The notes beneath the pieces are model-generated. The model did no database searches, was not told where the DNA came from, and saw only the letters and a program-made list of their open reading frames with translations. The position numbers and the translations under genes are program-made. From contig JAFTWA010000060.1 in NCBI GenBank assembly GCA_017465565.1, forward strand, positions 1-34,282: 34,282 bases of DNA, in the 5' to 3' direction. Positions 13,801 to 32,452 of this stretch are shown here, in pieces; within the stretch, counting starts at the first letter, position 1, and each line of letters starts with the position of its first letter. The DNA comes from Tyzzerella sp. (lineage in GTDB: Bacteria; Bacillota; Clostridia; Lachnospirales; Lachnospiraceae).

Positions 13801-15162
13801 TTATTGCCCACGCAACTGTAAGATTTCAATTGATTTATTTAATGCTTCTGCTGCATTTTCAATATATGTGTTTACATCGCCAGTTGGCTCTGAAATAATG
13901 TTTGAAACAATTTCAAAGCTTGTATCAAGAAGCTTATTTGTAATCGTTGCATTTGGGAATTTCAATTCTGCATTTACTGTTTTTAACTTTTCTTCTAATT
14001 TTGCTTCTGAAGGATAGTTTTCATCTCTCCATGTAATCCATTCTTGACTTGTGAGTGCTTCTTCTGTATATGGTGTATATCCACGGAATGTACTCCAGAA
14101 AATTTGATTTTCTGGCTTAGCAAGGAATTTTAAGAATTCATATGCTCCCTGCATTTCCGTCTCATCTCCTGTATTTGCGATGAAAATACTTGTTCCTTCT
14201 GCAAGTACGCTGCCTTTATGTTTTGCATTATCATCAACGCCCTGGAATGGAAGAAATGCCCATTCAAACTCGATATTTACATCTTGAAGTTCATAAACGA
14301 AGGAACTTGTACATGCCCAGAACAACGATCTTCCATTTACAAATGTAGCTGTTCCTGCATCCTGACCTTTTGTATTCTTCATACAAGCACCGCTCTTAAC
14401 CATATCCGCATAAATCTTAGCCATCTTTGTTAAAGCTGCTTTTGTTTCTCCTTCGTTATACATGCTCTTTGTGATGTCACCTGAATGTCCATTGTCTGCA
14501 TCAAAAATGCCTACACCTTGATAAAGCAGCATATCTAATACCTCAGAACCATCTCCTGGAATGTATCCGTACTCAGAAGCACCCTTATCAAATGCAGCCT
14601 GTGCTGCTGCTGCAATTTTTTCAAAGCTTGTCAAATCATCAACTGTGTATCCTGTCTGTGCCAATACATCAAGATTTACCATATAACCTTTTACACTGAC
14701 ACCAACTGGCATACCGATAAGTTTTCCTTCTGTATCTGAATAAGAAGTTTTTACACTTTCTAACATTCCTTCTGTAAAATCTTCACTGTCCTTGTCGATA
14801 AAATCCTGCAGCGGTGCTACATACTCAGCTTCTGCATATTCATAAATCGCATTGTTTGTTCCCATGAAAAGTGATGGGTAATACTCTGGTGTAGATGTAG
14901 AAAGTTTTTGACGGTTACCAGATGCAGCCTGACCTGTTTCCAGCGAAACCGAATACTCTGCATTTTCTTTATTAAATTTCTTTACCAACTCTTCAAATTT
15001 TGCATTTGATGCTGCAGTGTAAGAACTCCACAGAGTCAACTCTGTCTTCCCATCTGGCGTTTTTCCTTGGCTGTCTCCACCATTACTGCTTCCGCATCCT
15101 GCTAATCCTGTACATGCAAGTGCCAAAGCCAATAATCCTGCCAACAATTTCTTTTTCATCAT
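13801..15162 (-). CDS. Carbohydrate ABC transporter solute-binding lipoprotein
   Basis: The 453-residue protein is a family 1 extracellular solute-binding protein. It has a lipoprotein signal peptide with lipobox LAGC (C23) and a start TELTLWSSYTAASNAKFEELVKKFN-type strand and helix usual for sugar binders. It should capture the operon's sugar substrate and deliver it to the two permeases encoded just upstream. The first of two adjacent ATGs is preceded by GGAGG at good spacing. The sequence does not identify the sugar. No ATPase gene accompanies the transporter in this window. Confidence 0.92.
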   Translation of the reverse strand: MMKKKLLAGLLALALACTGLAGCGSSNGGDSQGKTPDGKTELTLWSSYTAASNAKFEELVKKFNKENAEYSVSLETGQAASGNRQKLSTSTPEYYPSLFMGTNNAIYEYAEAEYVAPLQDFIDKDSEDFTEGMLESVKTSYSDTEGKLIGMPVGVSVKGYMVNLDVLAQTGYTVDDLTSFEKIAAAAQAAFDKGASEYGYIPGDGSEVLDMLLYQGVGIFDADNGHSGDITKSMYNEGETKAALTKMAKIYADMVKSGACMKNTKGQDAGTATFVNGRSLFWACTSSFVYELQDVNIEFEWAFLPFQGVDDNAKHKGSVLAEGTSIFIANTGDETEMQGAYEFLKFLAKPENQIFWSTFRGYTPYTEEALTSQEWITWRDENYPSEAKLEEKLKTVNAELKFPNATITNKLLDTSFEIVSNIISEPTGDVNTYIENAAEALNKSIEILQLRGQ

Positions 15163-15193
15163 AAATTTTTACCTCCATAATAAATTTTTTATT

Positions 15194-16003
15194 TTAACTC
15201 TTAACAGCTCCGGCTGTCATACCTTCCACGATTTCATCCATACCGAAGAAATAAATCAACAGCGGAATAATAGAAGTTATGGTAGCTGCCGCAAGTGTAA
15301 GGCCGTCATGGCTGCTCCAAGCAATACTTGCAACCCCTGTCTGAATCGTTCTCATCTCATCTTTGGTAGTAACAAGAAGTGGCCACATATAGCTGTTATA
15401 AATTGAAACAAATGATCTAAGTGCAAATGTTACAATCATGGTTTTACAAACTGGAACTAAAATCGAGAAGAAATATTTCATATCTCCACATCCATCTATC
15501 GTCGAAGCTTCCCGAAGTTCCTTTGGAACAGACTGCATCGTTTGCCGGAACAGGAACACCGCACTTACATCCGTCAGACCCGTTATCGTCAAACCGGCGT
15601 AGGTGTCAATCATGTTCCACTTCAAAATCATCTTAAACAATGTTACTTCAAGCACTTCCCCTGGAATCATCATTACCATTAACAGTATTGCAAACCATAC
15701 ACTCTTAAATGGAAATTCAAAATGAGAAAACGCATAGGCTGCCAGTAAGGATGTAAGAAGTCTTGCAGGAAGACAAACCACAATCATCACAAACGTATTT
15801 TTCATATAAGTACCGAGATTCATGTATTGAAACGCTTCGATATAGTTTGCAAACGTTGCATTTTCCAATGTCAGTTTAAAAGGACTCGCTAAAATGTCTG
15901 CTTTAGGCATAAATGCCACAATCAACGCAAGGAGAATTGGCGATATCATACAGATTCCCAGAAAAATTCGAACAACCTCCAACATAACTGTTTTTATTTT
16001 CAT
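15194..16003 (-). CDS. Carbohydrate ABC transporter permease, MalG type
   Basis: This 269-residue integral membrane protein has about six hydrophobic segments. A cytoplasmic EAA loop, LREASTIDGCGDMKYFFSILVP by family pattern, lies at about 160-185. It pairs with the MalF-type permease upstream to form the channel of a sugar importer. The GTGAGGTGAG ribosome binding site lies about 10 nt before the ATG. The 28-nt gap from the previous gene suggests co-transcription. Confidence 0.92.
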   Translation of the reverse strand: MKIKTVMLEVVRIFLGICMISPILLALIVAFMPKADILASPFKLTLENATFANYIEAFQYMNLGTYMKNTFVMIVVCLPARLLTSLLAAYAFSHFEFPFKSVWFAILLMVMMIPGEVLEVTLFKMILKWNMIDTYAGLTITGLTDVSAVFLFRQTMQSVPKELREASTIDGCGDMKYFFSILVPVCKTMIVTFALRSFVSIYNSYMWPLLVTTKDEMRTIQTGVASIAWSSHDGLTLAAATITSIIPLLIYFFGMDEIVEGMTAGAVKS

Positions 16004-16031
16004 AATTAAATGCTCACCTCACTCTCACAAA

Positions 16032-16895
16032 TTATTGGTAAAATACAAGTTTCTTTTCACAGAAAAATTGTATTCTTGTTAGTATGAAAAGAAGCAAGAA
16101 CATTACTATAGAAAGACAACATGCATATTCGTATTCTCCATATCGAATTGCTCTCAAATAAATTTCATACATTATTGTGGTCGTAGACCCTGCCGGTCCA
16201 CCTGACGTTAACAATTTTGCCTGTGTAAAACATTTCATTGCGCCAAGAATATTTAAAAACAATACATAAAAAATCTGTGGCGATGCCATAGGCAGCATAA
16301 TCTTAATTGCTTTTGTAAATCCATTCGCCCCATCTACCGTCGCAGCTTCCTGAATGTCATCTGACACTCCACGGAATCCTGCCAACAGATATAAAAAGCT
16401 GCCTGAAATGTGAGTCCAAATGGTAACAACTGCCACCACCCAGAATGCCGTATCCTTATTCGTAGTCCATGAAATATCGGTTCCCAGCCATGAGTTAAGT
16501 AATCCACCATCCGTTTTAACTACGAAAAGAAAGATAACGGAACTAGTTGCGTGGGCGATTGCAATTGGCAGTGCATAAAGCATCTGAGAAATCTTCCCAA
16601 GTTTCGTCTTCTTCGTAGTCAAGAGTGCCAATAACATTGCAATTCCGAAAGTTCCAATAAAAATTACAACGGCAAAAACTAATGTAAACTTCAAAATCTG
16701 CCAAAAACTATCCTCATGAAACATCATGTCCCAATATGTAGTTCCTGCCCAGCTTTGCCATGCCCCGAACTGATCGGTAAAAGAAAATGAAGATAAAATC
16801 GTTTTAAAAAATGGATAAAAACTAAATACTCCAGCTCCTACGAACGTTGGTAACATCAGCAAATATGGTAAGGCACGTTTCTTTTTCTTTTTCAT
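16032..16895 (-). CDS. Carbohydrate ABC transporter permease, MalF type
   Basis: This 287-residue membrane protein begins with a Lys-rich cytoplasmic start (MKKKKKRALPYLLM), followed by about six transmembrane helices. The EAA loop is seen as IQEAATVDGANGFTKAIKIM at about 180-200. With the MalG-type partner it forms the transmembrane part of a CUT1-like importer. Energy would have to come from a shared ATPase (MsmX/MsmK type) encoded elsewhere, as is common in Firmicutes. Confidence 0.92.
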   Translation of the reverse strand: MKKKKKRALPYLLMLPTFVGAGVFSFYPFFKTILSSFSFTDQFGAWQSWAGTTYWDMMFHEDSFWQILKFTLVFAVVIFIGTFGIAMLLALLTTKKTKLGKISQMLYALPIAIAHATSSVIFLFVVKTDGGLLNSWLGTDISWTTNKDTAFWVVAVVTIWTHISGSFLYLLAGFRGVSDDIQEAATVDGANGFTKAIKIMLPMASPQIFYVLFLNILGAMKCFTQAKLLTSGGPAGSTTTIMYEIYLRAIRYGEYEYACCLSIVMFLLLFILTRIQFFCEKKLVFYQ

Positions 16896-19838: not shown

Positions 19839-19861
19839 AGTCTCCTCCTTTTTCATATTTA

Positions 19862-20749
19862 TTATCCAACTCGAAATGTCAGTGTACGCTCAAACACCCC
19901 ACCAACATCAACCGATTCTATTCCAAGTTTATTCTCCCACACATGGTCTGTACTTGCCAAATCAGATGTGCCGCACCATGGTTCAATACACATGATGGAC
20001 ATTCTGTTTCCGACGCCCCACAGGCACATGTATGGAAAATCCTTGATTCCCAGTTCTACAAAGTGTCCGCTGCGTTTTGATTTCATAGTGATGAAATCTG
20101 CGTGAACCTCTTCGAGTAACTGCGGACCATCATCAAAATAGTGGTCACTTAATTTTTTTTCAGTTTCACCATGAAGCCATGGGATTCTTTTTCCCGTCAA
20201 GAGGCGAGTCCCTTCTTCTAATTCAAACTGATTAATATATTGTGGAGAATCGAATTCTAAAGAATAATCCTCTCCACTTTCATCTAGTGCGATTGGACAA
20301 TAAAATCCAGGGTGTGCACCTAATGAAAAGTAAATTCTTTTATTATCGTCATTGATCACACGGAACTTCTGAACGACAACTTCCCCGTCTAATGAAAATT
20401 CCACTTGGAATCGAAACTCATAAGGAAAGCTCTTTCTCGTTTCTTCTGTTGCAGATATTTGAAGCAAAATATGCTTATCATCTGCTTCTAACACTTCAAA
20501 ATCCATGTCATTTGCAAATCCATGCATCGTAGCTGGATAAACTTTTCCGCCGATGATGGTTCTGTCTCCGGCGATACGCCCTGGATTTGGAAATAGCAGC
20601 ATGGAATGATGAGGCCAAGTATCGCCTCCTGGCTGCCACAAATATTCCATTTCCGTCTTTTTGGAATACAGACTTTGAAGCTCTGCGCCAATAGGAGCAA
20701 CTTCAATTTTTATGAATTCATTTTCAAGTTTTAAGTTTTTGTCTCCCAT
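19862..20749 (-). CDS. Aldose 1-epimerase family protein (LacX-like)
   Basis: The 295-residue protein has the galactose-mutarotase superfamily beta-sandwich. A histidine lies at H76 in TMHGFAND and another at H146 in SLGAHPGFYCP, with IEPWCGTSD near the C-terminus carrying the likely catalytic acid. It should interconvert anomers of a free sugar and so feed the downstream dehydrogenase. Its closest flavour is the LacX-like subgroup found beside sugar catabolic genes. The ribosome binding site AGAGGA precedes the ATG. Confidence 0.88.
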   Translation of the reverse strand: MGDKNLKLENEFIKIEVAPIGAELQSLYSKKTEMEYLWQPGGDTWPHHSMLLFPNPGRIAGDRTIIGGKVYPATMHGFANDMDFEVLEADDKHILLQISATEETRKSFPYEFRFQVEFSLDGEVVVQKFRVINDDNKRIYFSLGAHPGFYCPIALDESGEDYSLEFDSPQYINQFELEEGTRLLTGKRIPWLHGETEKKLSDHYFDDGPQLLEEVHADFITMKSKRSGHFVELGIKDFPYMCLWGVGNRMSIMCIEPWCGTSDLASTDHVWENKLGIESVDVGGVFERTLTFRVG

Positions 20750-20768: not shown

Positions 20769-21626
20769 TTACAAAATACAGTCGAGCGCTTTTTCTAAAC
20801 CATAAAGCATATCCATTCCAGATGAATGTCCTACCTCTTTTATCTTCTCAAGTACTTTGACAAGATCTGCTTCATAATCTCCAGCCAATATCTGAATTAA
20901 TCTGCACAATATTTCTGCAAATTCACCACGGCAGGCACATTTTAAGTACTTGCAGCTGATTTCTGTTGTTTGCTTTTCTCCAATTAGATAGGAAAGGATT
21001 CTTTCAACCCTGGCAAAATAGGTGTCTTGTTTTTTATGTAAAGCCAACCCTAGCAAACATCCTGCAAGTGTGCCTACTATTGCATCATCGGCAGCCGGGG
21101 TCAAACCTCGCCCCGCTCCTATCAATGTCTGGAAGGAACTTTCTACTGCTGATAGATTACTATCTAGTACACCTTCCACAAATGTACTTAATGCAACCCC
21201 ATAACGCTCTGGTAATCTCTCGAAATCACTCTTTTTTCCACTGTATCCTATAAATGTTTCTATTTGTTTTTTCTTTTGTTCAAACTGTTCTTTATTAAAA
21301 TTCTCTAAGGAGATGTTCAAAAGGCTGCAGGATGAAATATTGGATAGCGCAATTTTTATATCCTTTATTTGCATGTAGTCTTTTGATTTCACTGCCCGAA
21401 ACTCATCCTGCTTTTTCAAACGTTCATAATCTTCCCTTCGAAGTATGATGCTGTCTGGCAAAAGGATATTTCCTTCGCGCATGATGGTCAGTAATCTTGC
21501 CTCTCCTTTTATAGAGAATCGGAAATTTTGTACTCTGTCGAATTTGGAATGTAAGGTTCCCCAGGATATTTCGTCCTGGTTCCACTCTGACGCCAGGTTC
21601 ATCTCTATTGGAGTAACTTCAAACAT
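20769..21626 (-). CDS. DUF2877 protein, AllH-like subunit
   Basis: The DUF2877 signatures are clear: GAGRGLTPAADDAIVGTLAG mid-protein, then TTEISCKYLKCACRGEFAE, then VGHSSGMDMLYG near the end. In E. coli the DUF2877 protein AllH (YlbF) is the third component of oxamate carbamoyltransferase, with FdrA (AllF) and a DUF1116 protein (AllG). Those two partners are encoded upstream here. The frame opens at 21662. The ATG at 21626 (MFEVTPIE) is preferred because it limits overlap with the kinase gene to 22 nt, though its ribosome binding site is weak. The kinase gene lies between this gene and its two partners. Confidence 0.82.
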   Translation of the reverse strand: MFEVTPIEMNLASEWNQDEISWGTLHSKFDRVQNFRFSIKGEARLLTIMREGNILLPDSIILRREDYERLKKQDEFRAVKSKDYMQIKDIKIALSNISSCSLLNISLENFNKEQFEQKKKQIETFIGYSGKKSDFERLPERYGVALSTFVEGVLDSNLSAVESSFQTLIGAGRGLTPAADDAIVGTLAGCLLGLALHKKQDTYFARVERILSYLIGEKQTTEISCKYLKCACRGEFAEILCRLIQILAGDYEADLVKVLEKIKEVGHSSGMDMLYGLEKALDCIL

Positions 21627-22744
21627 TGTCTCATCACCATAAGTTCTTCGTTCGTTTTCCATATGTAAACTCCAATTTTGCTTTCAGGTTTGCTGATTCT
21701 GCCTTCGTTTCCAACCTCGTTTGCCTCATCATCGAGAACGATTCCTTTGTAGGAAAGTTCTTCGCAAACTCTCTTACGAATCAGGCTGCTTCCCTTTCCA
21801 ATACCACCGGTAAATACAAGTGCATCTGCTCCCTTGAGGTATGCATCAAACATTCCCGCATATCCAACAAGATTGTCTACATATGCATCTAATGTAAGAT
21901 TTGCTCGTGCATCTCCCTCGTTTGCTGCTGCCTCTATAAGCCGCAAATCATTGCTGATTCCACTAACTCCGAGAAGCCCGCCTTTCGAAGACAAGTCTTT
22001 CAAAATCTGATTCCAGTCTCCATCATAAGCTTTCATAAGACCCGGAAGACAATACATATCAATATCGCCTACACGGTTGTTCTGAAACACTCCTGATTGT
22101 GGTGTCGCACCCATGCTGGATGCAATACTCTCTCCATCTTCAATGGCACAAACGGATGAAGAGCCTCCCAGATGAAAGGAAATGATTTTCTTACACTCTG
22201 GTGCTTCTTTCCCCATCTTCCATGCCATAAAGCTGTGTGATGAGCCATGAAAACCATATCTTCGAATACCCATTTTTTCTTTCCATTCGTAAGGAACTCC
22301 GTAGAGTACTCTTTTTTCTGGAATGGATGCATGAAAGGAAGTTTCAAAATACCCAATCTGTAAAAGCTTTGGAAATCTTTCTTTCATCTCTTTCATGACC
22401 TGAATGTATACTGGGTTGTGGGCTGGTGCGAATACGGAATAATGTTCCATAATTCCTAAGATTTCATCATTAATGACTCTTGCACCTGTCACATCACCTG
22501 CGTGAACCGCCTTATAACCAACTGCATCAAGGCTTTCAAAGGAATCTAACACTCCTTTTGCTTTTAGTTCTTTTTCTGTCTCTGCAAATGCGTCCATGTG
22601 ACTCATAGTTCCGGCAGAACCCACATTTTCAAAACCACCTTCAGCCACCTGCTTTTCCTCATCACAGATTTCAAATAATTTGTATTTGAAGCTGGTAGAA
22701 CCGAGGTTTAATACCATAATGTGATACGTTTTTTTATTTTCCAT
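21605..22744 (-). CDS. Acetate kinase-family protein in an FdrA/DUF1116/DUF2877 operon
   Basis: The 379-residue protein has acetate/butyrate kinase (ASKHA) motifs: LNLGSTSFKYKLF at 12-24, FAPAHNP at 105-111, RRYGFHGSSH at 161-170, NNRVGDID at 222-229, FTGGIGKGS at 311-319 and TNEELMV at 364-370. Residues matching M. thermophila acetate kinase Arg91 and Asp148 are changed. Here they are K78 (GYKAVHAG instead of HRVVHGG) and E134 (FETSFH instead of FDTAFH). The acyl substrate is therefore probably not simply acetate. Related operons usually carry a carbamate kinase in this position. The ATG at 22744 overlaps the DUF1116 gene by 11 nt. It probably exchanges an acyl phosphate with ADP/ATP. Confidence 0.85.
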   Translation of the reverse strand: MENKKTYHIMVLNLGSTSFKYKLFEICDEEKQVAEGGFENVGSAGTMSHMDAFAETEKELKAKGVLDSFESLDAVGYKAVHAGDVTGARVINDEILGIMEHYSVFAPAHNPVYIQVMKEMKERFPKLLQIGYFETSFHASIPEKRVLYGVPYEWKEKMGIRRYGFHGSSHSFMAWKMGKEAPECKKIISFHLGGSSSVCAIEDGESIASSMGATPQSGVFQNNRVGDIDMYCLPGLMKAYDGDWNQILKDLSSKGGLLGVSGISNDLRLIEAAANEGDARANLTLDAYVDNLVGYAGMFDAYLKGADALVFTGGIGKGSSLIRKRVCEELSYKGIVLDDEANEVGNEGRISKPESKIGVYIWKTNEELMVMRQCLKLLQ

Positions 22745-24134
22745 ATTTCTTAACATAAGCAGCCATCGCTTTCTCGAAACATTCCATTGGAACACGGGCA
22801 CTACCTGCACCGATTAATCCACCTTCGAAGTTAAACATACCACCATGGATTTCTGGAGTAATTCCTGTCTCTAATACCTTGCGGATATCAATACCAACTG
22901 GAAGGAATTCAAAGTCCATATTTGGAATTGGGAAGTTTGGATTCTTTGTAATACAAATCTTCTGCATTTCCTTTGTAAGCGCTACTGCGTCTTTATTTTT
23001 CATACCACGAAGTGCACATACGATAGGGCTGGCTGCTGCTGCAAGTCCACCCATGCCGGCACATTCTACCACGCAGCTGTCTCCAATCCATGGGAGCTGG
23101 TCTTTGATAGTATATTTGCTTGATGTGTAACGTCCCTTCATCATTGGAGCTGGCGCTGTAAACCATTCATCTCCAAGACCTGCAACCTTGATACCGAAAG
23201 TTACACCGTTTCCACAAACGGCTGTTACCATGGTAGAATATTCTGTTCCAACTGCAGAAAGCATTGCACTTCTTGATGCGCCTTGTCCATAGCAGTGGAA
23301 ATAACGTGGTGTGTCTACAATATAGTTCACAACTGGAAGTAATTTTTCCTTTGGAACATCCATCTTAAATAAGTTTGGCAATACCTGATGTTCGAAAATA
23401 AGGTCTGCTGCTGACTGTCTTGTATGATTTTCATCACCCATCTGGAAGCTTTCTGCTAAGATTGGTTTGATTGCAATCGGTCCAAACTCTTTTAACATCT
23501 GTCTCACAACAGGGAATAATTCTTCTCTCATATAGCGAAGGTTTTCTGCAATTTCTGGTGAGTATAAGCCCCAACCACAGAAGCCTCCTTGGAAAGGTCC
23601 TTCTGCTGGGAATGTTGCAGCGCGGATTCCTGTTCTTCTGTCTTCAATAATAATCATGGCTACTGATTTTGTGATAATACCAGTTCCGGCACCTACTGTA
23701 TTGGTATCCAGGGCTGACATGATTTTGAGTTTCCCTGATTTAATCAGCTCCACTGCTTCTTCCTGTGTCTTTGCCCAGCCTTCAAACAGACAAGCACTTA
23801 CAAGACCTCTCTGGTGAAGCATTACCATATCGTCGTATTCAATCGGTGGTCCAGAGTGAATGATGGTATAATCATCTAATCCCTCGATAACCTCTCCTGC
23901 TGGAAGAATGTCTACCCACGCTGGATCAGAATCAATGATGCAATGTACTGCCTTGTCATTCGCCGCATCGATTTTTTCTTTTAATTCACTTTCGTTTACT
24001 ACTTCTAACATTCTCTCTGTTTCGCAGCTTCTCTGTACTGGAACTCTCCAGTCTACCTGAACTGCTTCGCAGTCTTGTGCTTTCAGCGCATCATAGAAAA
24101 ATTGAAGTCCGATATTTACTACTTTCCATTTCAT
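22734..24134 (-). CDS. DUF1116 protein, AllG (YlbE)-like subunit
   Basis: The 466-residue protein is a full-length DUF1116 member, recognised by DTNTVGAGTGI, EGPFQGGFCGWGLYSPEIAENLRYMREE-type segments, GDENHTRQSAA, and the glycine-rich C-terminal run VECAGMGGLAAAASPIV. In E. coli this family (AllG) works with FdrA (AllF) and AllH as oxamate carbamoyltransferase, acting between carbamoyl phosphate and oxalurate. The start ATG has the ribosome binding site GAAAGGAGAAA and lies 3 nt after the fdrA stop. Its 3' end overlaps the kinase gene, so the four genes form a translationally coupled module. Confidence 0.88.
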   Translation of the reverse strand: MKWKVVNIGLQFFYDALKAQDCEAVQVDWRVPVQRSCETERMLEVVNESELKEKIDAANDKAVHCIIDSDPAWVDILPAGEVIEGLDDYTIIHSGPPIEYDDMVMLHQRGLVSACLFEGWAKTQEEAVELIKSGKLKIMSALDTNTVGAGTGIITKSVAMIIIEDRRTGIRAATFPAEGPFQGGFCGWGLYSPEIAENLRYMREELFPVVRQMLKEFGPIAIKPILAESFQMGDENHTRQSAADLIFEHQVLPNLFKMDVPKEKLLPVVNYIVDTPRYFHCYGQGASRSAMLSAVGTEYSTMVTAVCGNGVTFGIKVAGLGDEWFTAPAPMMKGRYTSSKYTIKDQLPWIGDSCVVECAGMGGLAAAASPIVCALRGMKNKDAVALTKEMQKICITKNPNFPIPNMDFEFLPVGIDIRKVLETGITPEIHGGMFNFEGGLIGAGSARVPMECFEKAMAAYVKKYGK

Positions 24135-24137
24135 AAA

Positions 24138-25667
24138 TTAATTTCTCCTTTCCAATTCTTGCATAAGCGCTCCTGCGAGGCGCGCACTTTCATAACTAGA
24201 AGCTGTTACAATAACTCCTGCATCTTGAAGGAGCTTCTTCTTTTCCACAATGTTTTGTGGGTCCTGTTTTGAACCACAAATATTTGCAATATATGTAATA
24301 TGTCTTCCTGTATCTGCTTTTTTGATTGCATCCACAAATGGTGTAATTGGGTCTTCTGCTACCCCTGGTCCTGTAATGAAATCAAGAAGCACTACTGCTG
24401 TCTCTTCATCCTTTAATTCTTTCATAAGTCTGCGGATACGAAGCTGTGGGTCGAATACAGGATGTGGAGCTTCGCTTGTAAAGTCTTCTGCACCCATATC
24501 TAAGATACTGTGTCCGAAGCTTACGTGACTGTCTTCTAATTTCTCCGCATATTTTGTATTGAGGTTCGAGTACAATTTAATTCCAGGAATCTTGCTGTAG
24601 TAAAGAAGCCCTTCTTCTGTGAATGTACCGCCACAGTACAATCCTCTGAAATATTTCTGTGTTTCGTTATATTTTTTCATTTCACCGGCTACGATTTCTG
24701 CAATTTCTGCATCTTCATATCTGAAATTCAAGTCGATGTCTGGTTTAATTAATTTTGCAGCCTTACATGCAGCTTCTTCTAAAGAGAATGCTGGAACTGT
24801 TTTATGTCCTTCAAATAAAGCTTCATCTCCGCCTAAGAATACTGCAACCACCGGTTTTGTTAAGCTGTCAGCTGCTCCAAGCACCTTTTCCATAACTTGA
24901 TAGTTTGCTAATTTGGAAACTAAGATGATGACCTTTGTATCTTCATCTTTTTCCAGAAGCTCCATACCTTGCAGCATTTCGATACCACCGATTTCTGGGT
25001 AAAGGTCTCTTCCGCCGGTTCCAATCAGTGATGAAATACCGATGCCACATTGGTCAAGGAGACATGCTACTTCCTGTGCACCGCTTCCTGATGCTGCTAC
25101 AATACCAACTGGACCTTGATTCATGATAGAGCCCGCTGCTAAGCAAACACCGCCGACCATACCAACGCCACAGTCTGGCCCCATAACAAGCAGTCCTTTT
25201 TCTCTTCCCTTTTCTTTTAACCTGCGTTCTTCTTCCAAGCTCACATTGTCGCTGAAGATAAATACGTGAAGACCTTTGTCTAAGGCTTTGTTTGCTTCTT
25301 CGTATGCGTATCTTCCTGGAAGAGAAATCTGTACTAAATCGAAAGGTGTTTCTTCTAAATCAATTTCACTCAGGTCAGAGTAGTGTTCTTCCTCATCCTC
25401 ATCTCTGTGTTCTAAGATATCTTCAATACGGGTAAATGCTGCTGCCAGATGTTCCTCTGTATCACCAGTCACAGCCATTACCAAATCATCTGGTCCTGTA
25501 CCTTCTGGAATCTCATAGCCAAGCTCCACAAGAAGTTCTTGGTTTGCCCATGTTCCCATCTGTACTTCTGCATTTTCAATGCCGTCCATTTTCATAATTT
25601 TATCGCCAACAGACATCAGCGTTACGGAATCAATGTATCGATTCTTTTTTACAACAATCTTTTTCAT
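24138..25667 (-). CDS. fdrA: FdrA-family protein, AllF-like subunit
   Basis: The protein has about 509 residues and is related to the succinyl-CoA synthetase alpha subunit. It has GPDCG at about 163-167, a phosphate-binding-type loop ASGSGAQ at about 192-198, GTGGRD at about 216, and SFGHSILDMGAEDFTSEAPHP further on. Genes of this family combine with DUF1116 and DUF2877 proteins; in E. coli the trio is oxamate carbamoyltransferase. An acidic insert (EHRDEDEEEHY) lies at about 86-97. Two ATGs occur: 25673 is only about 2 nt from AAGGGAG, while 25667 has proper spacing and is preferred. The gene lies directly after the KDPG aldolase gene. Confidence 0.87.
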   Translation of the reverse strand: MKKIVVKKNRYIDSVTLMSVGDKIMKMDGIENAEVQMGTWANQELLVELGYEIPEGTGPDDLVMAVTGDTEEHLAAAFTRIEDILEHRDEDEEEHYSDLSEIDLEETPFDLVQISLPGRYAYEEANKALDKGLHVFIFSDNVSLEEERRLKEKGREKGLLVMGPDCGVGMVGGVCLAAGSIMNQGPVGIVAASGSGAQEVACLLDQCGIGISSLIGTGGRDLYPEIGGIEMLQGMELLEKDEDTKVIILVSKLANYQVMEKVLGAADSLTKPVVAVFLGGDEALFEGHKTVPAFSLEEAACKAAKLIKPDIDLNFRYEDAEIAEIVAGEMKKYNETQKYFRGLYCGGTFTEEGLLYYSKIPGIKLYSNLNTKYAEKLEDSHVSFGHSILDMGAEDFTSEAPHPVFDPQLRIRRLMKELKDEETAVVLLDFITGPGVAEDPITPFVDAIKKADTGRHITYIANICGSKQDPQNIVEKKKLLQDAGVIVTASSYESARLAGALMQELERRN

Positions 25668-25687
25668 TTCCATTCTCCCTTCTGCTT

Positions 25688-26335
25688 TTATTTTACAGCT
25701 TCCACATAGCGTCTTGCCAATTCTGTAATGCCAGCATAGTTTCCTTCTGCCACCATTTTCTTATCTACGATGTTAGATGCCATTCCAAAGCCACACACAC
25801 CAACCTTTAAGTAGTCTTTTAAGTTATGATGGTCTACACCGCCCACCGCTAAAAGTCGAATGTGTGACAATGGCGCTTTTACTGCTTTTACATATTCTGG
25901 TCCAAATGTAGAAACTGGAAATAGTTTTACAAAATCTGCACCCATCTCATGTGCATCTTCTATCTCCGTTGGAGTGAGTGCTCCTGGCATAGAAACCATA
26001 CCAAGCTCTCTTGTTTTTTGAATGACTGCTTCTTTCACATTTGGCGAAATGATAAAGGAGCCACCTGCTGCTTTTGTCATTTCTACCTGCTTTGGTGTTA
26101 ATACGGTACCCGCACCCACCAGCATTTTACCTTCAAAATGCTCCTGAATTGAACGAATGCATTCTGCTGTCACTTCATCTGGAATGGAACCATTTGCAGA
26201 ATAAGTAACTTCAATGAGACGAATTCCGCCTTCGTACATCGCCTCTGCAAGTGGAATCATTTTCTCTTTTTCCAATCCACGTACAATTACGATTAATTTT
26301 TCATCTAAAATCTTTTGAATTACATCTTCTCTCAT
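25688..26335 (-). CDS. eda: KDPG / 4-hydroxy-2-oxoglutarate aldolase
   Basis: This 215-residue class I aldolase has the Schiff-base lysine K137 in DFVKLFPV and the general acid/base E42 in LIEVTYS. The phosphate-binding regions VGAGTVLTP (73-81) and AVGGVD are present. It splits 2-keto-3-deoxy-6-phosphogluconate (or an epimer) into pyruvate and glyceraldehyde-3-phosphate in the cytoplasm. Its position right after a KDG-type kinase gene supports the last step of a semi-phosphorylative Entner-Doudoroff route. The length is normal. The ribosome binding site AGAGGCG precedes the ATG. Confidence 0.93.
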   Translation of the reverse strand: MREDVIQKILDEKLIVIVRGLEKEKMIPLAEAMYEGGIRLIEVTYSANGSIPDEVTAECIRSIQEHFEGKMLVGAGTVLTPKQVEMTKAAGGSFIISPNVKEAVIQKTRELGMVSMPGALTPTEIEDAHEMGADFVKLFPVSTFGPEYVKAVKAPLSHIRLLAVGGVDHHNLKDYLKVGVCGFGMASNIVDKKMVAEGNYAGITELARRYVEAVK

Positions 26336-26353: not shown

Positions 26354-27376
26354 CTATCTTTGCACACGACCAGAACCATCGCCATCCATGAGTTTCGTCA
26401 CTTCATCGATTGTCACTTCATTAAAGTCGTGTTCAATGGAATGCTTGAGACAAGAAGCAGCCACTGCAAATTCAATTGCCTTTTGCGGTTCATATCCACT
26501 AGAAAGTGCATAGATGAGTCCGCCGCCGAATGAGTCTCCGCCGCCAACGCGGTCTACAATATGTACCAAATATTCTTTTGAAAAATAACTCTTTCCATCT
26601 ACGTAAAGCATTCCTGCCCATTTATTATCGCTTGCTGAAAGCGAGCTTCTAAGTGTGATTGCAACCGTTGGAATGTTGAATTTCTTTGAAAGTGTCTCTG
26701 CAACCACTGTATAGCCTTCTTTCGAAAGGCTTCCGCCTGTTACGTTCGTGCCTTCTGATTTAATGCCAAATACCTTTTCGCAGTCTTCTTCATTTCCGAT
26801 TGCCACATCTACGTATTCCATAAGTCCTGCCATAACCTGACCAGCTTTTTCACTGCTCCAAAGCTTATTTCTATAGTTTAAGTCACAGCTTATTTTCACG
26901 CCTTTTCCCTTTGCTTTTTTGCAAGCTTCCAAACATACTTCTGCAGCTTCATCGGAAAGGGCTGGTGTAATTCCTGTAAAGTGGAACCATTCTGCCCCGT
27001 CAAAAATCTTATCCCAGTCAAAGTCCTCTGGCTTTGCCATAGAAATGGATGAATATTTTCTATCATAAATAACCTTTGATGCTCTCTGAGAAGCTCCTTT
27101 TTCTACAAAATAGATTCCCATTCTTTCTCCGCCAAGTACAACGTCAGAAACATCTACTCCATATCCTCGAAGCTTTCTTAAAGCTGATTTTGTCAAATCA
27201 TTATCAGGAAGCTTTGTCACAAATGAAGCATCTTTTCCGTAGTTTGCTAAAGATACCGCAACGTTTGCCTCTCCTCCTGCATAGCTGATTTCCAATTGCT
27301 CTGCCTGTACCACTCTTAAATACCCTAATGGATTTAAGCGGGCCATAATTTCACCAAAACATACAAATTTGCCCAT
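26354..27376 (-). CDS. kdgK: 2-keto-3-deoxygluconate kinase-like PfkB sugar kinase
   Basis: This 340-residue PfkB-family kinase starts at the ATG at 27376, which overlaps the previous stop as TAATG and has AAAGGAGG 8 nt upstream. An in-frame opening at 27406 is too early. YAGGEANVAVSLANYG (32-47) is the substrate-binding N-terminal signature. DRVGGGDSFGGG carries D275 and the catalytic base D281. The position between a dehydratase/oxidase pair and KDPG aldolase points to phosphorylation of 2-keto-3-deoxy-sugar acids with ATP. The stereochemistry of the substrate is not determined by the sequence. Confidence 0.9.
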   Translation of the reverse strand: MGKFVCFGEIMARLNPLGYLRVVQAEQLEISYAGGEANVAVSLANYGKDASFVTKLPDNDLTKSALRKLRGYGVDVSDVVLGGERMGIYFVEKGASQRASKVIYDRKYSSISMAKPEDFDWDKIFDGAEWFHFTGITPALSDEAAEVCLEACKKAKGKGVKISCDLNYRNKLWSSEKAGQVMAGLMEYVDVAIGNEEDCEKVFGIKSEGTNVTGGSLSKEGYTVVAETLSKKFNIPTVAITLRSSLSASDNKWAGMLYVDGKSYFSKEYLVHIVDRVGGGDSFGGGLIYALSSGYEPQKAIEFAVAASCLKHSIEHDFNEVTIDEVTKLMDGDGSGRVQR

Positions 27377-29016
27377 TATTTTTCCTCCTTTAAGCTTTCT
27401 TTCCAAAGTTTTCTCTTTCCTCTGTTATCCTTTTGCAGCATAACATTATATTTATAGTCACCTTCATCGCTATCCTTACGAACATGGCATCCCACACTTT
27501 CTGTTCGCGCAAGTGCCGCATGCGCAAGGAGTGTTGCACAGATTAAGTCATTTTCTAGTCTTAATTTTCCATAAGGATTCTGGTGACAACTATGTGTTTT
27601 CACATAAGCTTCCATTTCTTCTATAGAAGCTACAGCCTTCTCTAAATCCGCCCCGTTTCTTATGACGAACAGATTATTTTGCAAGAGCTTTTCCATCTTC
27701 TCTCGGATTTCTATGATTTCTTCTGGGTTCATGACAGCCTCATTTTCTTTTCCAATCAAAGAAGAAATCCGTTCTGCCTCATTTGTGTTCTGATCCCTAA
27801 AATTTTTCACATCAGCTTCCACAAAATACTTGTACATTCCATCTGCCGCACGTTTTCCGAATACTAAGGTTTCTAGCCCTGCATTGCCTCCAACACGATT
27901 GGCGCCATGAAGCCCTCCGATAATTTCACCTGCTGCAAATAATCCTTTTATATTTGTTTCACAATTTGTGTTAACCACAACTCCGCCAAGAGATGTGTGG
28001 GCTCCCGGTGCTATCTCAAATGGTTCTTTTGTGATGTCTACACCAACTTTTTTATATCTATCCACGTAGGAAGCGTAGCTTTCCATGAGCTTTTCAGCTC
28101 CAACTCCAGTGGCATCAAAATAGACGCCGCCGTGCTCGGTAGGTGTACCTTCCTGCATTTCTCTATAAATCGCTTTTGCAAGGGTATCCTTGCCTACACA
28201 TTCTCCAGGTCCTTCACTGCCTTCTGGTTTCATGAAGCGTTCGTTCTTACCATTTCGAAGAACTGCGCCCTCATAGAACATGGTAGTAATCACGCTTTTA
28301 CTGCGTACCCCTTCTGGATATAACGCCACACTTGGCTCAAACTGGATAAATTCCATGTCTGTAAGCACCGCGCCTGCCTCAAATGCCATGGCAATACCGT
28401 CTCCGCCGCTGTCAGGCATATTGGTAGAGAATGGATAAATCCCACAAAAGCCGCCACTTGCAAGCATCACAATATCCGCTTCTCTGTATTCGAACTCTTC
28501 TTTCTTCTTATTCCAAAGAACAGCTCCCCGTACGCTTCCATCCTGCACATCCAATCTAAGTACTCTTGCGGATGCAGTAAAACATACTTCTTTTCTGCTT
28601 TTGAGCAGCGCATCCAGTCGGTTCATAATCTCTGCCCCTGTGTGATTTCCGCTTCCCGCCACACGTGGCCATGTTGAGCCGAGAGGCTTTAACAGTTTGT
28701 ACTGTCCATCTTTCTTTTCCAGAAAAACCTGCAGACGTTCCAAAAGCGCCGGCATGTCCTCGCTGTCTTCGCAAAGATATTTCACCAGTTCTGAATTCGA
28801 TAAGCCATATCCTCCATCCATGGTATCTTGTTTGAAAATATCCACCGTGTCATTTGGATGCAGTGGAACATTAAACCCATGCACATAAGGAGAAGCGCCG
28901 CTGCCGTCGCTGACAATCTCTATTTCCAGCTCAGCACTTCCTGTTTTTTCTAACAGCTGCCAAGCCGCCATAAGTCCTGTCAGGCCTTTCCCTACGATTA
29001 ATACTTTTATTCCCAT
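27376..29016 (-). CDS. Soluble fumarate reductase / L-aspartate oxidase-like flavoprotein
   Basis: The 546-residue flavoprotein belongs to the FrdA/SdhA/NadB superfamily. An N-terminal GKGLTGLMAAW nucleotide-binding motif is followed by MLASGGFCGIYPFSTN, GGDGIAMAFEAGA, and the C-terminal FAD segment AAGEIIGGLHGANRVGGNAGLE. No iron-sulfur or membrane anchor partner is encoded nearby, so it would work as a stand-alone dehydrogenase or reductase. It overlaps the dehydratase gene by 10 nt and the kinase start by 1 nt, which implies coupled translation. Its place between dehydratase and kinase suggests redox chemistry on a sugar-acid intermediate, but the reaction is unknown. Confidence 0.85.
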   Translation of the reverse strand: MGIKVLIVGKGLTGLMAAWQLLEKTGSAELEIEIVSDGSGASPYVHGFNVPLHPNDTVDIFKQDTMDGGYGLSNSELVKYLCEDSEDMPALLERLQVFLEKKDGQYKLLKPLGSTWPRVAGSGNHTGAEIMNRLDALLKSRKEVCFTASARVLRLDVQDGSVRGAVLWNKKKEEFEYREADIVMLASGGFCGIYPFSTNMPDSGGDGIAMAFEAGAVLTDMEFIQFEPSVALYPEGVRSKSVITTMFYEGAVLRNGKNERFMKPEGSEGPGECVGKDTLAKAIYREMQEGTPTEHGGVYFDATGVGAEKLMESYASYVDRYKKVGVDITKEPFEIAPGAHTSLGGVVVNTNCETNIKGLFAAGEIIGGLHGANRVGGNAGLETLVFGKRAADGMYKYFVEADVKNFRDQNTNEAERISSLIGKENEAVMNPEEIIEIREKMEKLLQNNLFVIRNGADLEKAVASIEEMEAYVKTHSCHQNPYGKLRLENDLICATLLAHAALARTESVGCHVRKDSDEGDYKYNVMLQKDNRGKRKLWKESLKEEK

Positions 29017-30665
29017 ATGCCACCTTTTGCCATAGAGCCTACATTTTTCACGAAGAGATTTAAGAATCTTGGATAGTCATTTTCTGGGAACTCCCAGTGG
29101 AATGCCTCTACACGAGCTTTCATCTCTTCCTCTGTGATATCCAGATGAATCTTTCTTTCCTTCACATCTATTTCAATAGTGTCGCCTTCTTCTACAATTC
29201 CAAGTGGGCCTGCAAGTGCTGCCTCTGGAGATACATAACCGATGCTAAGTCCGCTTGTTCCGCCCGAGAATCTTCCGTCCGTAATAATTGCACAGCTATT
29301 ATATAATACAGGATTTCCTTTTAATTCCTCTTGGAAAGTAAAGGCAGTTGTACCAAATCTTGCCTTTAATCCGAGGAAACGAATGATAATCGCATCTCCT
29401 TCATGAATCTGGCCGCCGCGAAGTGCATCGAGTGCATCATGAAGTCCGTCAAATACTCTTGCTTTTCCCTTGAATTGCATCAATTGCTCTGGAACAGCCG
29501 CAATCTTTAAGATAGCGCCTTCTGGTGCTAGATTTCCATAAAGTACACCAATTCCTGGTTCCCACATCACTGGATTATCTAAGCTTCTGATAATCTCTGG
29601 ATTGTAGTTCACCGCATTTTTCACGTTCTCTGCAATTGTATTTCCCGTTACAGTCAGACAATTTCCATCTAAAACTGGAAGCATCTCTTTTAATAGCGCT
29701 GGCATTCCTCCCGCAAGGTCAAGGTCCTTCAGTGAATATGGACCTCCTGGTGCCAAATGCGAAAGAAGTGGCACTTCCTGTGAAGCCTCATCAAAATATT
29801 TCCACCATGGAAGGTCATAACCTGCTTCGTTTGCAATTGCTGGAATGTGAAGAATCAGGTTCGAGCTTCCTGCAACCGCCATATCTAATTTAATGGCATT
29901 TTTAATTGCCTCTACTGTCATAATATCTCTTGCTTTGATATCTTGCTCTACTAAATTTACAATCTGCTTTCCTGCTTCATAAGCAATCAAATAAAGCTGC
30001 GAGCTCACTGCAGACACCGTTGAATTCCCCGGAAGAGACATTCCAAGCGCCTCTGCAACCATACACATGGAATTGGCTGTTGTCATAGAAGTACAGGCTC
30101 CACAGATTCCCCATGATTTTGCAATCAAATCATTATATTCATCCATGTCCATTTTGCCTTCTTTGGCAGTTCCAACTTTATCCTGTGCATGAATATGTAA
30201 TACTTCTTTCCCTCGGCATTGTCCTAATGGCATATAACCACCTGTTACTAGGATTGTAGGTATGTTAATTCTCGCTGCTCCCATCAAGTGTCCCGGTACG
30301 ATAGAATCACAGGTAGAGAGCATTACCATACCATCGAAGAAATTGCCTTCTACGGTAAGCTCCACTTGATCTGCAATAGAGTTACGGCTTGGAACTTCAA
30401 TGTAACGCGGGTCTTTTAATACCATTCCGTCACAGATACCAGTTGTCATTACTTCTAATGGAAGCCCGCCTGCTTCCCGAATCCCTGCCTTTACACGTTC
30501 TGCCACCTTTTGCAGATGTACATGCCCCGGGTTAAATTCATTCCAAGAGTTTACAATTCCGATTAGTGGACGCTTCAATTCCTCATTGGAATAACCCATT
30601 CCCATCATGAGACCTCTACGACACTCACTCGCTTCACCAAATTCCCATTGACTTCTTAATTTCAT
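29007..30665 (-). CDS. IlvD/Edd-family dehydratase, probably sugar-acid specific
   Basis: This 552-residue protein has the IlvD/Edd fold. A cluster cysteine lies at C119 (STCDS) and others at C188/C191 (GICGACTSMTTANSM). A metal-site aspartate D79 is in GICDG, and a C-terminal TDGRFSGGTSG loop is present. The family removes water from dihydroxy acids using an Fe-S cluster and Mg. Next to KDG kinase and KDPG aldolase, the likely product is a 2-keto-3-deoxy sugar acid rather than a branched-chain keto acid. The usual CDK motif, whose lysine is carbamylated to hold Mg, reads CDS here (S121). The ribosome binding site TAGGAGG is strong. Confidence 0.87.
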   Translation of the reverse strand: MKLRSQWEFGEASECRRGLMMGMGYSNEELKRPLIGIVNSWNEFNPGHVHLQKVAERVKAGIREAGGLPLEVMTTGICDGMVLKDPRYIEVPSRNSIADQVELTVEGNFFDGMVMLSTCDSIVPGHLMGAARINIPTILVTGGYMPLGQCRGKEVLHIHAQDKVGTAKEGKMDMDEYNDLIAKSWGICGACTSMTTANSMCMVAEALGMSLPGNSTVSAVSSQLYLIAYEAGKQIVNLVEQDIKARDIMTVEAIKNAIKLDMAVAGSSNLILHIPAIANEAGYDLPWWKYFDEASQEVPLLSHLAPGGPYSLKDLDLAGGMPALLKEMLPVLDGNCLTVTGNTIAENVKNAVNYNPEIIRSLDNPVMWEPGIGVLYGNLAPEGAILKIAAVPEQLMQFKGKARVFDGLHDALDALRGGQIHEGDAIIIRFLGLKARFGTTAFTFQEELKGNPVLYNSCAIITDGRFSGGTSGLSIGYVSPEAALAGPLGIVEEGDTIEIDVKERKIHLDITEEEMKARVEAFHWEFPENDYPRFLNLFVKNVGSMAKGGIWE

Positions 30666-30677: not shown

Positions 30678-31475
30678 CTAAAATTCGAAATTCATACTTT
30701 CAATTGAGCCATCTACAGACTGTCCACCATCAATAAAAATGGTCTGTCCTACAATAAATTTTGATTTCTCTTTATCTGCCAGGAAAAGCATCATAGGAAC
30801 AATGTCATCTACTGTGCCGCCTGTACCGTATGGAATCTTTCTAGAGAAGGATGCCAAATCGGCTTCACTATATCTTTCGGCCAATTTTGTAAATACAAGT
30901 CCTGGTGCAATTCCATTTACATTAATCCCATATTTAATCAATTCCACACCCAAAGCCTTTGTGAACATGTTAAGTCCACCCTTACCTGCTGAATATGGAA
31001 GCATTCTTCTATGTACCCAGGTAACTTCTGAATGGATAGACGAAACATTAATAATGCTTCCTTTAATTCCTTTCTTAATCATATCTTCCGCTGCATAGCG
31101 GGATGTATAAGCTGCGGAGCTTAAGTTGAGTGCAATCTGTGAATCCCAGTATTCCATTGGCATATCGACGAATCTGCCCTTTGGACCGTCTGGAATCTGA
31201 AGTGCTCCGCCTGCATTGTTAATCAAAACATCAATGTGGCCAAAATATTCTATAAAATCATCAATCATCTTTTTACATGCATCATGCTTGCTGACATCGC
31301 ATACAAAGATTTTTGTTTTTGCTCCATATTTTTCACATTCTGCTGCTACTTTTTCAGCTCCCTCAGGATTCTTGTTCGCAGTTACACCTACGTTGTACCC
31401 TTCCTTTGCAAATGCAATTGCTGCTGCTGCTCCGATTCCGTGTGATGAGCCTGTGATTAATACATTTTTCTTCAT
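30678..31475 (-). CDS. SDR-family dehydrogenase (sugar or sugar-acid dehydrogenase type)
   Basis: The 265-residue classical short-chain dehydrogenase has TGSSHGIG (8-15) for the cofactor, NNAGG at 86-90, S145/S146 in INVSSIHSE, and Y161 and K165 in YSAGKGG. The Ser-to-Tyr distance is two residues longer than usual. The motif resembles glucose- or gluconate-type dehydrogenases. In this operon it could oxidise an aldose to a lactone or interconvert keto and hydroxy groups of a sugar acid. It lies 12 nt before the dehydratase gene, with the ribosome binding site AGAAAGGAAG. Confidence 0.88.
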   Translation of the reverse strand: MKKNVLITGSSHGIGAAAAIAFAKEGYNVGVTANKNPEGAEKVAAECEKYGAKTKIFVCDVSKHDACKKMIDDFIEYFGHIDVLINNAGGALQIPDGPKGRFVDMPMEYWDSQIALNLSSAAYTSRYAAEDMIKKGIKGSIINVSSIHSEVTWVHRRMLPYSAGKGGLNMFTKALGVELIKYGINVNGIAPGLVFTKLAERYSEADLASFSRKIPYGTGGTVDDIVPMMLFLADKEKSKFIVGQTIFIDGGQSVDGSIESMNFEF

Positions 31476-31477: not shown

Positions 31478-32374
31478 CTATCTTCCTTTCTGTCTATTTC
31501 TTGTTATTTTTATTTCTTCGATATGTGTCTTCACCGTATACATCGGCAAAAATAAATATCCTGGTTTTATATTATTCATATGGGAAATCAACTGCTCTGC
31601 AATGGCAGCAATCTCTGTTTCGCCGTCATCCAATCGCTCCGCAATAAACTTTCCATATATCTCAACAATTCGTTCGCAATTTTTCAGATATGTAATCGCT
31701 TCTTCTTCTCCAATTGCCTTATCTCCTGAGAAAAGATAAGGGTGACCGCTGATAATATTTTGAATATCCATTGTCCTAAGCTTCGAAAGACTTTCTTGGT
31801 AGTCTGTCAAACTCATATATAGTGCGGTGCCCTGGGATGCTGTCCCATTTCCCTGAAGCGAATCACCTGTAATGAGAGATTTTGTTTCCAAATCATAAAA
31901 GCACACGCAATCGTCATCATGACCCGGTGTGGCGATAAGCTGCAATCTACCGGCAACAATATCACCCTCTTCAAGAATACTTGTCTCCTTTACACCCTCC
32001 AGAACGGCCGGTGCTGCCGGTGAATGTTCTGGGAACGTGGCACGAATTAGTTTGGAGTATTTCAGTGGATTATGAAGCTTATCCACGGATTTCCTGTAAA
32101 CTGCCACTTTCACATTTCCAAGTTCCACGATTCGCCTGTGTCCTCCCACATGGTCCCCATGACAATGGGTGTTTAACAGCCAATCCATATCTGAAAGCTG
32201 ATATCCCAATTGCTTTAACGCTGGCACCAAACATTCATCAATGTTCTTCGCATCAAGTCCACTATCAATCAGAATTTTTTCTTTTCCGTCTATGAAAATA
32301 ATTCCGTTCCATACTCCTTCCACTGGCGTTTCCAGACGATAGATATCATTCATTATTTTTTTGAACTTAACCAT
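31478..32374 (-). CDS. Cytoplasmic MBL-fold hydrolase, possibly a lactonase; first gene of the operon
   Basis: The protein has about 298 residues. THCHGDHVGG gives zinc ligands H70, H72, D74 and H75, and ATPGHDDDCVCFYD and ISGHPYLF supply further ligands. There is no signal peptide. The frame is open to 32455, but that extension crosses the predicted promoter, so the ATG at 32374 (MVKFKKIMND), with AAAGAGG upstream, is chosen. MBL enzymes of this kind hydrolyse lactones, thioesters or phosphate esters. Together with the SDR and dehydratase, a sugar lactonase role is attractive, but this is inference from context. Confidence 0.85.
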   Translation of the reverse strand: MVKFKKIMNDIYRLETPVEGVWNGIIFIDGKEKILIDSGLDAKNIDECLVPALKQLGYQLSDMDWLLNTHCHGDHVGGHRRIVELGNVKVAVYRKSVDKLHNPLKYSKLIRATFPEHSPAAPAVLEGVKETSILEEGDIVAGRLQLIATPGHDDDCVCFYDLETKSLITGDSLQGNGTASQGTALYMSLTDYQESLSKLRTMDIQNIISGHPYLFSGDKAIGEEEAITYLKNCERIVEIYGKFIAERLDDGETEIAAIAEQLISHMNNIKPGYLFLPMYTVKTHIEEIKITRNRQKGR

Positions 32375-32413
32375 CAATATGCCCTCTTTACCCATTATTT
32401 TTTTACTTATTAA

Positions 32414-32442: not shown

Positions 32443-32452
32443 TCCTCAAAAC

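Follow-up and report, generated by a model that had tools for sequence, protein, structure and literature searches.

A candidate phosphorolytic version of the diketo route for sugar acids, with AllFGH-like proteins and a distinct acetokinase-family kinase, in Tyzzerella sp.

Gene content of the Tyzzerella sp. operon

The window analysed here is a stretch of 34,282 nucleotides (nt) of Tyzzerella sp. (GCA_017465565.1, contig JAFTWA010000060.1, hereafter C52), whose assembly has 3.22 Mb and is 88.6% complete. It contains 17 genes on the minus strand, from position 32455 down to 12689, spaced by 38 nt or less or slightly overlapping. In this order they encode a metallo-beta-lactamase (MBL)-fold hydrolase, a short-chain dehydrogenase/reductase (SDR), an IlvD/EDD dehydratase, a NadB/FrdA-like flavoprotein, a PfkB kinase, a 2-keto-3-deoxy-6-phosphogluconate (KDPG) aldolase, FdrA, AllG, an acetokinase-family kinase here named AckX, AllH, an aldose epimerase, an unclassified glycosidase-like protein, a GPD-like dehydrogenase, three ABC (ATP-binding cassette) transporter components and a second MBL protein. 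A sequence-only reading of this DNA had singled out FdrA, AllG and AllH, as the family of E. coli AllFGH, together with the kinase; that reading missed that trio and kinase form only the lower half of a longer operon for sugar oxidation, a setting that suggests both a substrate and a product.

FdrA, the AllF homologue (24138..25673), matches NF004760 with 390.7 bits (below the cut-off of 433), Ligase_CoA with 97.3 bits and PDB 3DMY with an E-value of 6.1e-64. The AllG homologue (DUF1116; 22734..24134), proposed as the cleaving subunit, matches PF06545 with 218.9 bits and, with the A1 profile, PDB 3CLQ with an E-value of 1.4e-93, and the AllH homologue (DUF2877; 20769..21626) matches PF11392 with 87.1 bits; these matches bear out the assignment of the trio. 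AckX (21605..22744), which has an altered active site, counts 379 amino acids (aa) from an ATG at 22744 and matches PF00871 with 289.4 bits and an E-value of 4.5e-86, which places it, as had been claimed, in the acetate kinase family and not with carbamate kinases. Its ATG and the AllG stop codon at 22734-22736 produce the 11-nt overlap already described, and a candidate AllH ATG at 21626 gives a 22-nt overlap with AckX. Predicted starts were used; longer frames are possible for AckX (from 22810) and AllH (from 21662, its longest open reading frame). No carbamate kinase AllK and no allantoin-degradation genes were found in the window.

Upstream of the trio, the MBL-fold hydrolase (31478..32455; PF00753, 94.4 bits) is a probable sugar lactonase and the SDR (30678..31475; PF13561/PF00106) a probable sugar 1-dehydrogenase, whose closest solved structures include glucose 1-dehydrogenases and one gluconate 5-dehydrogenase. 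The IlvD/EDD-family protein (29007..30665; PF00920, 365.8 bits) is a probable aldonate dehydratase with dihydroxy-acid and L-arabinonate dehydratases as nearest solved chains, and the NadB/FrdA-like flavoprotein (27376..29016; PF00890, 190.2 bits) is proposed as a 2-keto-3-deoxy-aldonate 4-dehydrogenase. They are followed by a PfkB kinase similar to 2-keto-3-deoxygluconate (KDG) kinases (26354..27406; PF00294, 128.7 bits; NF041633, 567.7 bits, below the cut-off of 700) and by a protein similar to KDPG/2-keto-4-hydroxyglutarate (KHG) aldolases (25688..26335; PF01081, 130.7 bits).

Conservation of the locus and joint absence of FdrA, AllH and AckX

The survey covered the best 80 of 129 AllG loci from a contig scan of genomes with seven AllG proteins, and gene families were scored with profiles built from the loci themselves; as 50 of these 80 do not reach 21 kb, the per-locus gene counts are lower bounds. 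FdrA was found in 55 loci, whose carriers belong to Clostridia, Erysipelotrichaceae, Opitutales, Lentisphaerota and one Planctomycetaceae metagenome-assembled genome. These loci contain the flavoprotein in 46 cases, the dehydratase in 45, the SDR in 43, the MBL protein in 39, AckX in 38, the KDPG aldolase in 35, AllH in 34 and PfkB in 30. AllK appeared in none of the 55 sugar-type loci and allantoin genes were scarce (allB in two, allC in one, allD and allE in none). In all 38 loci with FdrA and AckX, AckX and AllG are on the same strand. Because the FdrA-AllG-AckX-AllH arrangement recurs in many genomes, it is not due to chance, and the survey of fdrA loci for acetate-kinase-type genes that the sequence-only reading had called for gave a conserved partner. 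As a control, 11 E. coli-type AllG loci of the class survey (L042-L052) showed no AckX, flavoprotein, dehydratase, SDR or MBL protein, and AllK in three. In two E. coli-type loci (L013, L016) AllG lies inside open frames of about 1010 aa resembling FdrA-AllG fusions.

Across the class sample of 391 genomes, 24 contain any AllG, and in seven of them (G000, G012, G042, G052, G115, G177 and G316) AckX is in the same block. An AckX search of this sample gave matches above 465 bits in at least 11 genomes; the list of matches stopped near 416 bits, above the 350-400 bits typical of AckX from microcompartment-type loci, and further AckX may exist among the genes below it. A plasmid search returned only FdrA matches, below 60% identity. 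Two loci (L097, L098) show FdrA-AllG-flavoprotein-AckX adjoining a tripartite ATP-independent periplasmic (TRAP) transporter (DctM), without sugar dehydrogenase or dehydratase, a composition that suggests direct uptake of a sugar acid; the L098 block also has the KDPG aldolase and PfkB.

Some loci retain MBL-SDR-EDD-flavoprotein-AllG without FdrA. In the genomes of 18 FdrA-less loci, searched whole, FdrA is absent from all (one 43-bit match lies far under the rest), as are AllH and any kinase with the AckX signature. The listed kinase matches of these genomes carry Arg at position 91 wherever the site is covered; the G408 fragment begins past it, one of two G406 fragments misses it and G412 has no kinase match. 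Thirteen genomes with FdrA lack AckX in the locus: AllH is found in all 13 and AckX elsewhere in 12. The distant AckX adjoins AllH in G391, G394, G395, G403 and, from coordinates, G393, and is in another FdrA locus in G402; in the thirteenth genome (G392) a 136-aa kinase fragment, which does not cover the signature sites, adjoins AllH at a contig edge. The comparison excludes L092, L101 and L116 among loci with FdrA and without AckX, and L083, L090, L118, L122, L125, L131 and L132 among those without FdrA. The joint absence of FdrA, AllH and AckX suggests that AllG would cleave the substrate, while FdrA with AllH would transfer the acyl group to phosphate and so supply AckX.

Sequence features of AckX, AllG and the flavoprotein

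The window genome has a second PF00871 gene, an ordinary AckA on contig C6 (553 bits). Catalytic positions Arg91, Asp148 and Asn211 are given in what we take to be the numbering of M. thermophila acetate kinase. Aligned with the genome's own AckA, AckX shows R91K and D148E in all 46 rows, which stand for 42 distinct loci, and Gly-Ser in place of Asn211-Gly212 in the 45 of 45 rows that cover the site; Leu122 is replaced by Ala, Val, Thr or Ser, and position 240 is mostly Asn. At the compared sites, window AckX has K78, A108, E134, G194, S195, Q216, N222 and N223. Kinases outside the AckX group, from other genomes, retain Arg91, Leu122 and Asp148 wherever covered, and three vary at 211. A tree of 91 kinase rows separates 56 AckX-type from 35 AckA-type sequences by a 100/100 branch; it leaves out duplicates (L033, L036, L037, L038), fragments (L055, L160, L163), an ordinary AckA (L148) and repeats of rows already included (L134, L164-L168, L173, L174).

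Six kinases of microcompartment-type loci fall within the AckX clade and group 99/94 with the subclade of the window, with some uncertainty in the tree as to whether the six form one group. According to Pfam, run on three of these loci, L233 encodes PduL, an aldehyde dehydrogenase and a class II aldolase, L234 a microcompartment (BMC) shell gene and L229 an aldehyde dehydrogenase. A FucA-like aldolase is present in five of the six (L229, L232-L235), and L231, L232 and L235 were otherwise assigned by eye from gene lists. Neither shell proteins nor PduL were found among the window proteins scanned, a search confined to the window. Four further AckX-type kinases lie in other operons (L221-L224), of which that of L224 retains Asp148. 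L221, L222 and L223 show the kinase in an operon with a branched-chain-type ABC transporter (by eye), and Pfam assigned in L221 a D-galactarate/altronate-type dehydratase, a 2-hydroxyacid dehydrogenase, a LarA-like racemase and an HMGL-like protein; judging by these families, it looks like another uncharacterised hydroxy-acid pathway. By its residues and clade AckX is distinct from AckA, and it is probably a kinase for 2-hydroxyacyl phosphates.

Thirteen group-specific positions set the AllG proteins of sugar-type loci apart from the E. coli group. Glycine occupies four of these sites, against Met, Lys, Arg and Arg in E. coli-type AllG, and might give the room that a bigger R group might need. 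At conservation thresholds of 80-95%, 40 positions, including H93, E178, D234, H237, D352, E357 and C452, are conserved in E. coli-type AllG as well as in the FdrA-containing sugar group and the two older AllG-only groups; in these last two, R239 is substituted in 4 of 6 rows and in 14 of 14. The AlphaFold model of AllG (seven sequences) was of middling quality, with a pLDDT (predicted local distance difference test) score of 66.3, and a Foldseek search with it gave only three chains of 3CLQ at E-values of 0.001 or lower, so the fold indicates no mechanistic kin. The pattern of conservation fits the reading in which AllG probably holds the cleaving site and FdrA with AllH would divert the acyl group to phosphate.

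All 58 aligned flavoprotein frames longer than 400 aa have Glu and Lys at the sites of His244 and Arg290, presumably in E. coli NadB numbering, and retain His351 and Arg386. Fifteen genomes belong to loci in which the flavoprotein gene is missing; an E/K-type copy occurs in 10 of them, and in G413 a fragment that includes the Lys. G441, one of the 15, has a second locus with a flavoprotein. Ordinary copies in those genomes have His/Arg. Second E/K-type flavoproteins, as 691-aa frames (L297, L298, L299), occur in the genomes of L093, L094 and L115, of which L094 comes from the cultured Oligosphaera ethanolica DSM 24202. PF01557 (FAA_hydrolase), which we take to be the family of the known diketo-acid hydrolases, gave no match in 38 of 44 genomes searched, including that of the window and 11 of 12 AllG-only genomes; as several assemblies are incomplete, single absences are weak.

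Among the remaining features, an aldose 1-epimerase-like gene (19862..20749, minus strand; PF01263, 77.4 bits) follows AllH, and a LacI-type regulator (32524..33666, plus strand; PF13377, 68.6 bits) is divergent from the operon. The ABC sugar-type transporter (13801..16895, minus strand; PF13416, PF00528) consists of a binding protein (13801-15162) and permeases (15194-16003 and 16032-16895), with genes spaced 28-31 nt apart. The unclassified gene at 17985-19856 is called glycosidase-like from weak matches of a homologue (L105) to the glycoside hydrolase (GH) families GH76 and GH127; it has no PDB match, and homologues are found in 10 of the 80 loci. Downstream of the operon, positions 7276-12666 encode a right-handed beta-helix protein of 1796 aa with seven Beta_helix stretches, and a group II intron reverse transcriptase/maturase (446-1864, minus strand) lies close to the contig end.

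Proposed pathway, its product and the alternatives

We propose, from the comparison of genes and sequences, that the operon encodes a sugar pathway that is oxidative and non-phosphorylating and ends in a phosphorolytic cleavage, with a probability of about 0.63. The SDR would oxidize the sugar to a lactone, the MBL protein would open it, and the IlvD/EDD enzyme would dehydrate the aldonate to a 2-keto-3-deoxy acid. By analogy with a succinate-type dehydrogenase, the NadB/FrdA-like flavoprotein would take the hydride from C4 and the proton from C3 to give the enol of the 2,4-diketo-3-deoxy acid, a chemistry for which succinate dehydrogenase oxidizing malate is a precedent. FdrA-AllG-AllH with phosphate would then convert R-CO-CH2-CO-COO- to pyruvate and R-CO-OPO3, and the phosphoryl group would pass to ADP via AckX to form ATP. 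KDG kinase and KDPG aldolase would handle 2-keto-3-deoxy acids having a 6-hydroxyl. To our knowledge only water has been known so far to cleave 2,4-diketo-3-deoxy acids, and their hydrolysis wastes the energy of the cleaved bond. The last cut would have its parallel in E. coli AllFGH acting on the isosteric oxalurate (H2N-CO-NH-CO-COO-), for which the available part of PMC11326118 gives oxalurate + Pi <-> oxamate + carbamoyl phosphate, with kinetics for carbamoyl phosphate and oxamate. Oxalurate and the 2,4-diketo acid have a common X-CO-Y-CO-COO- frame (NH vs CH2), so that phosphate attack at the distal carbonyl would be the same reaction, with enolpyruvate leaving.

Like AllFGH with AllK, the system has three homologous subunits and would hand an acyl phosphate (carbamoyl phosphate in E. 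coli) to a kinase of the same operon, but here the kinase is of the unrelated acetokinase family, sugar genes replace those for allantoin and AllG differs at the 13 positions. It also resembles route 3 of non-phosphorylating L-fucose and L-rhamnose breakdown (FucF-FucG, LRA5-LRA6), in which, according to the available part of PMC11199699, dehydrogenase, lactonase, dehydratase and C4 oxidation steps precede cleavage to pyruvate and a hydroxy acid, the diketone being hydrolysed to pyruvate and lactate. The window SDR and IlvD/EDD enzyme fall in the families expected for route 3, which do not by themselves identify substrates. Unlike route 3, a flavoprotein stands in place of an SDR 4-dehydrogenase, and phosphorolysis by FdrA-AllG-AllH plus the kinase is proposed instead of hydrolysis, by which ATP would be gained. 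The fucose-rhamnose microcompartment of Planctomycetes and Verrucomicrobium has a related AckX-type kinase, and lactyl phosphate is its proposed intermediate on the way to lactate; there, in the part of PMC8857213 available, it is formed from lactaldehyde via lactyl-CoA, with no FdrA. AckA shares PF00871 with AckX over the full length and differs from it in catalytic residues and clade. Searches of an open-access library yielded no paper that links FdrA/DUF1116 to sugar acids, diketones or an acetate-kinase partner, subscription papers and preprints being outside that scope. Going by its genes, the system would best be seen as a variant of the diketo route for sugar acids in which the cleavage is phosphorolytic, with AllFGH-like machinery and a distinct kinase.

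The product R-COO- would be a 2-hydroxy acid, in all likelihood lactate from a 6-deoxyhexose such as fucose or rhamnose, or else glycerate from a hexose. In one subclade, the L075 operon goes on as AckX-AllH-LarA-EtfB-EtfA-GlcD/LctD-like, with 604.7 bits for LarA against a cut-off of 460 in the lactate racemase model; L271, in the genome of L079, shows AllH-LarA-EtfB-EtfA (two frames)-LctD-like at a contig end, and L082 has EtfB-EtfA-LctD-like downstream of AckX-AllH. These Etf-linked dehydrogenases, which we take to resemble LctBCD, may act on lactate; NCBIfam names the LctD-like gene best as glycolate oxidase GlcD, at a score below the cut-off. Lactoyl phosphate would lead straight into a conversion of L-lactate to D-lactate and on to pyruvate. 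LarA exceeds the cut-off in 15 of 28 AckX genomes vs 56 of 391 in the class sample (Fisher p 4e-6, relatedness ignored) and adjoins AckX/AllH in two genomes only. The fucose isomerase marker PF02952 matches in 18 of 33 genomes, the best window match having only 50 bits. A Pfam scan of 93 neighbour proteins, chosen from 216 (39 of the 80 loci), found GH43 in seven and a sulfatase in two, which does not name the sugar. In the window itself the product may be lactate or glycerate.

Several observations speak against this proposal or its lactate form. EtfBA/LctD-like genes stand beside AckX-AllH in only three of the five genomes of that subclade; L072 has a different gene after AllH, and the L078 locus stops at AllH. 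A search of the window genome found no LarA, and PfkB and KDPG aldolase are in the same operon. In 6 of the 13 genomes (G396-G401) the distant AckX belongs to a microcompartment-type locus and may work for that locus alone, and it is only predicted that microcompartment kinases act on lactyl phosphate. On the AllG tree the co-absence reduces to three independent pairs, all agreeing (sign test p 0.25), and 1 of 25 loci without FdrA has AckX (L090), on a contig that starts inside AllG. In AllG, W349 (for Asp), H430 (for Asn) and Q240 are bulkier than in the E. coli group, so not all differences favour a larger pocket, and the proposal offers no mechanism for cleavage by AllG alone. The flavoprotein is missing locally in 5 of 38 loci with FdrA and AckX, and 4 of the 15 genomes lacking it in a locus (G429, G316, G403, G450) have no E/K-type copy. 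The functions of all proteins of the set are predictions.

The same phosphorolytic pathway could serve a hexose or pentose, with glyceroyl (or glycoloyl) phosphate as the acyl phosphate. The presence of PfkB and KDPG aldolase suggests that the substrate carries a 6-hydroxyl, in better agreement with glyceroyl than with lactoyl phosphate, and the TRAP-linked L097 and L098 blocks add to it; since PfkB and KDPG aldolase are also common in FdrA loci and no LarA was found in the window genome, this version keeps some weight. We nevertheless consider it unlikely, in view of the lactate racemase and lactate-dehydrogenase-like genes beside AckX-AllH and of the microcompartment-type kinases grouped with the window's subclade, predicted to use lactyl phosphate; moreover, a GlxK-type glycerate kinase query matched only E. 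coli's own among the loci searched, other glycerate kinase families not being sought. It is quite improbable that flavoprotein and trio act at another level, FdrA through acyl-CoA thiolysis or the flavoprotein as a reductase: FdrA is indeed related to succinyl-CoA synthetase and the flavoprotein family includes fumarate reductases, but in 58 of 58 sequences the flavoprotein has other residues at two sites that are typical for fumarate reductase and aspartate oxidase, and the E. coli homologue, in the available part of PMC11326118, uses carbamoyl phosphate in a reaction written as reversible with phosphate.

That AckX is a second ordinary acetate/propionate kinase using acetyl phosphate, with no mechanistic tie to the trio, has its full-length PF00871 match in favour. 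We rejected it as very improbable on residues, tree and gene context: R91K/D148E is invariant and accompanied by N211G, the clade is separate, the genome has its AckA elsewhere, and AckX-AllH pairs persist away from FdrA-AllG. Hardly any credit is left for a trio that makes carbamoyl phosphate as in E. coli, with AckX replacing carbamate kinase. All three subunits are homologous to AllFGH, and this candidate was rejected on the same three kinds of evidence, with AllK absent and allantoin genes nearly so, sugar-oxidation genes present in most FdrA loci, and the group-specific positions of AllG. The earlier suggestion that the complex releases an acyl phosphate other than carbamoyl phosphate thus gains support, which is comparative, from the lack of AllK, the frequency of AckX, its own signature and clade, and the co-absence in 18 of 18 genomes; a caveat is the ordinary AckA that the window genome also contains.

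Returning to the phosphorolytic pathway with lactate as product, the chances seem even for a wider joint reading, in which a widespread and so far undescribed fermentative route would cut the C-C bond of a 1,3-diketone with phosphate to give pyruvate and lactoyl phosphate, with ATP formed by a dedicated lactate kinase, FdrA/AllG/AllH would be a general phosphorolase for X-CO-Y-CO-COO- and AllG-only lineages would have reverted to hydrolysis. If the cleavage is indeed phosphorolytic, anaerobes would gain one ATP per sugar at the cleavage of the diketo acid, and a family that we found characterised only as transcarbamylase would have a second reaction. DUF1116 and DUF2877 would thereby acquire a general chemistry, and a kinase family for 2-hydroxyacyl phosphates would be common to this pathway and to microcompartments. 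Testable functions would also fall to genes that now have as their closest named families acetate kinase, dihydroxy-acid dehydratase, fumarate reductase/aspartate oxidase and the acyl-CoA synthetase FdrA.

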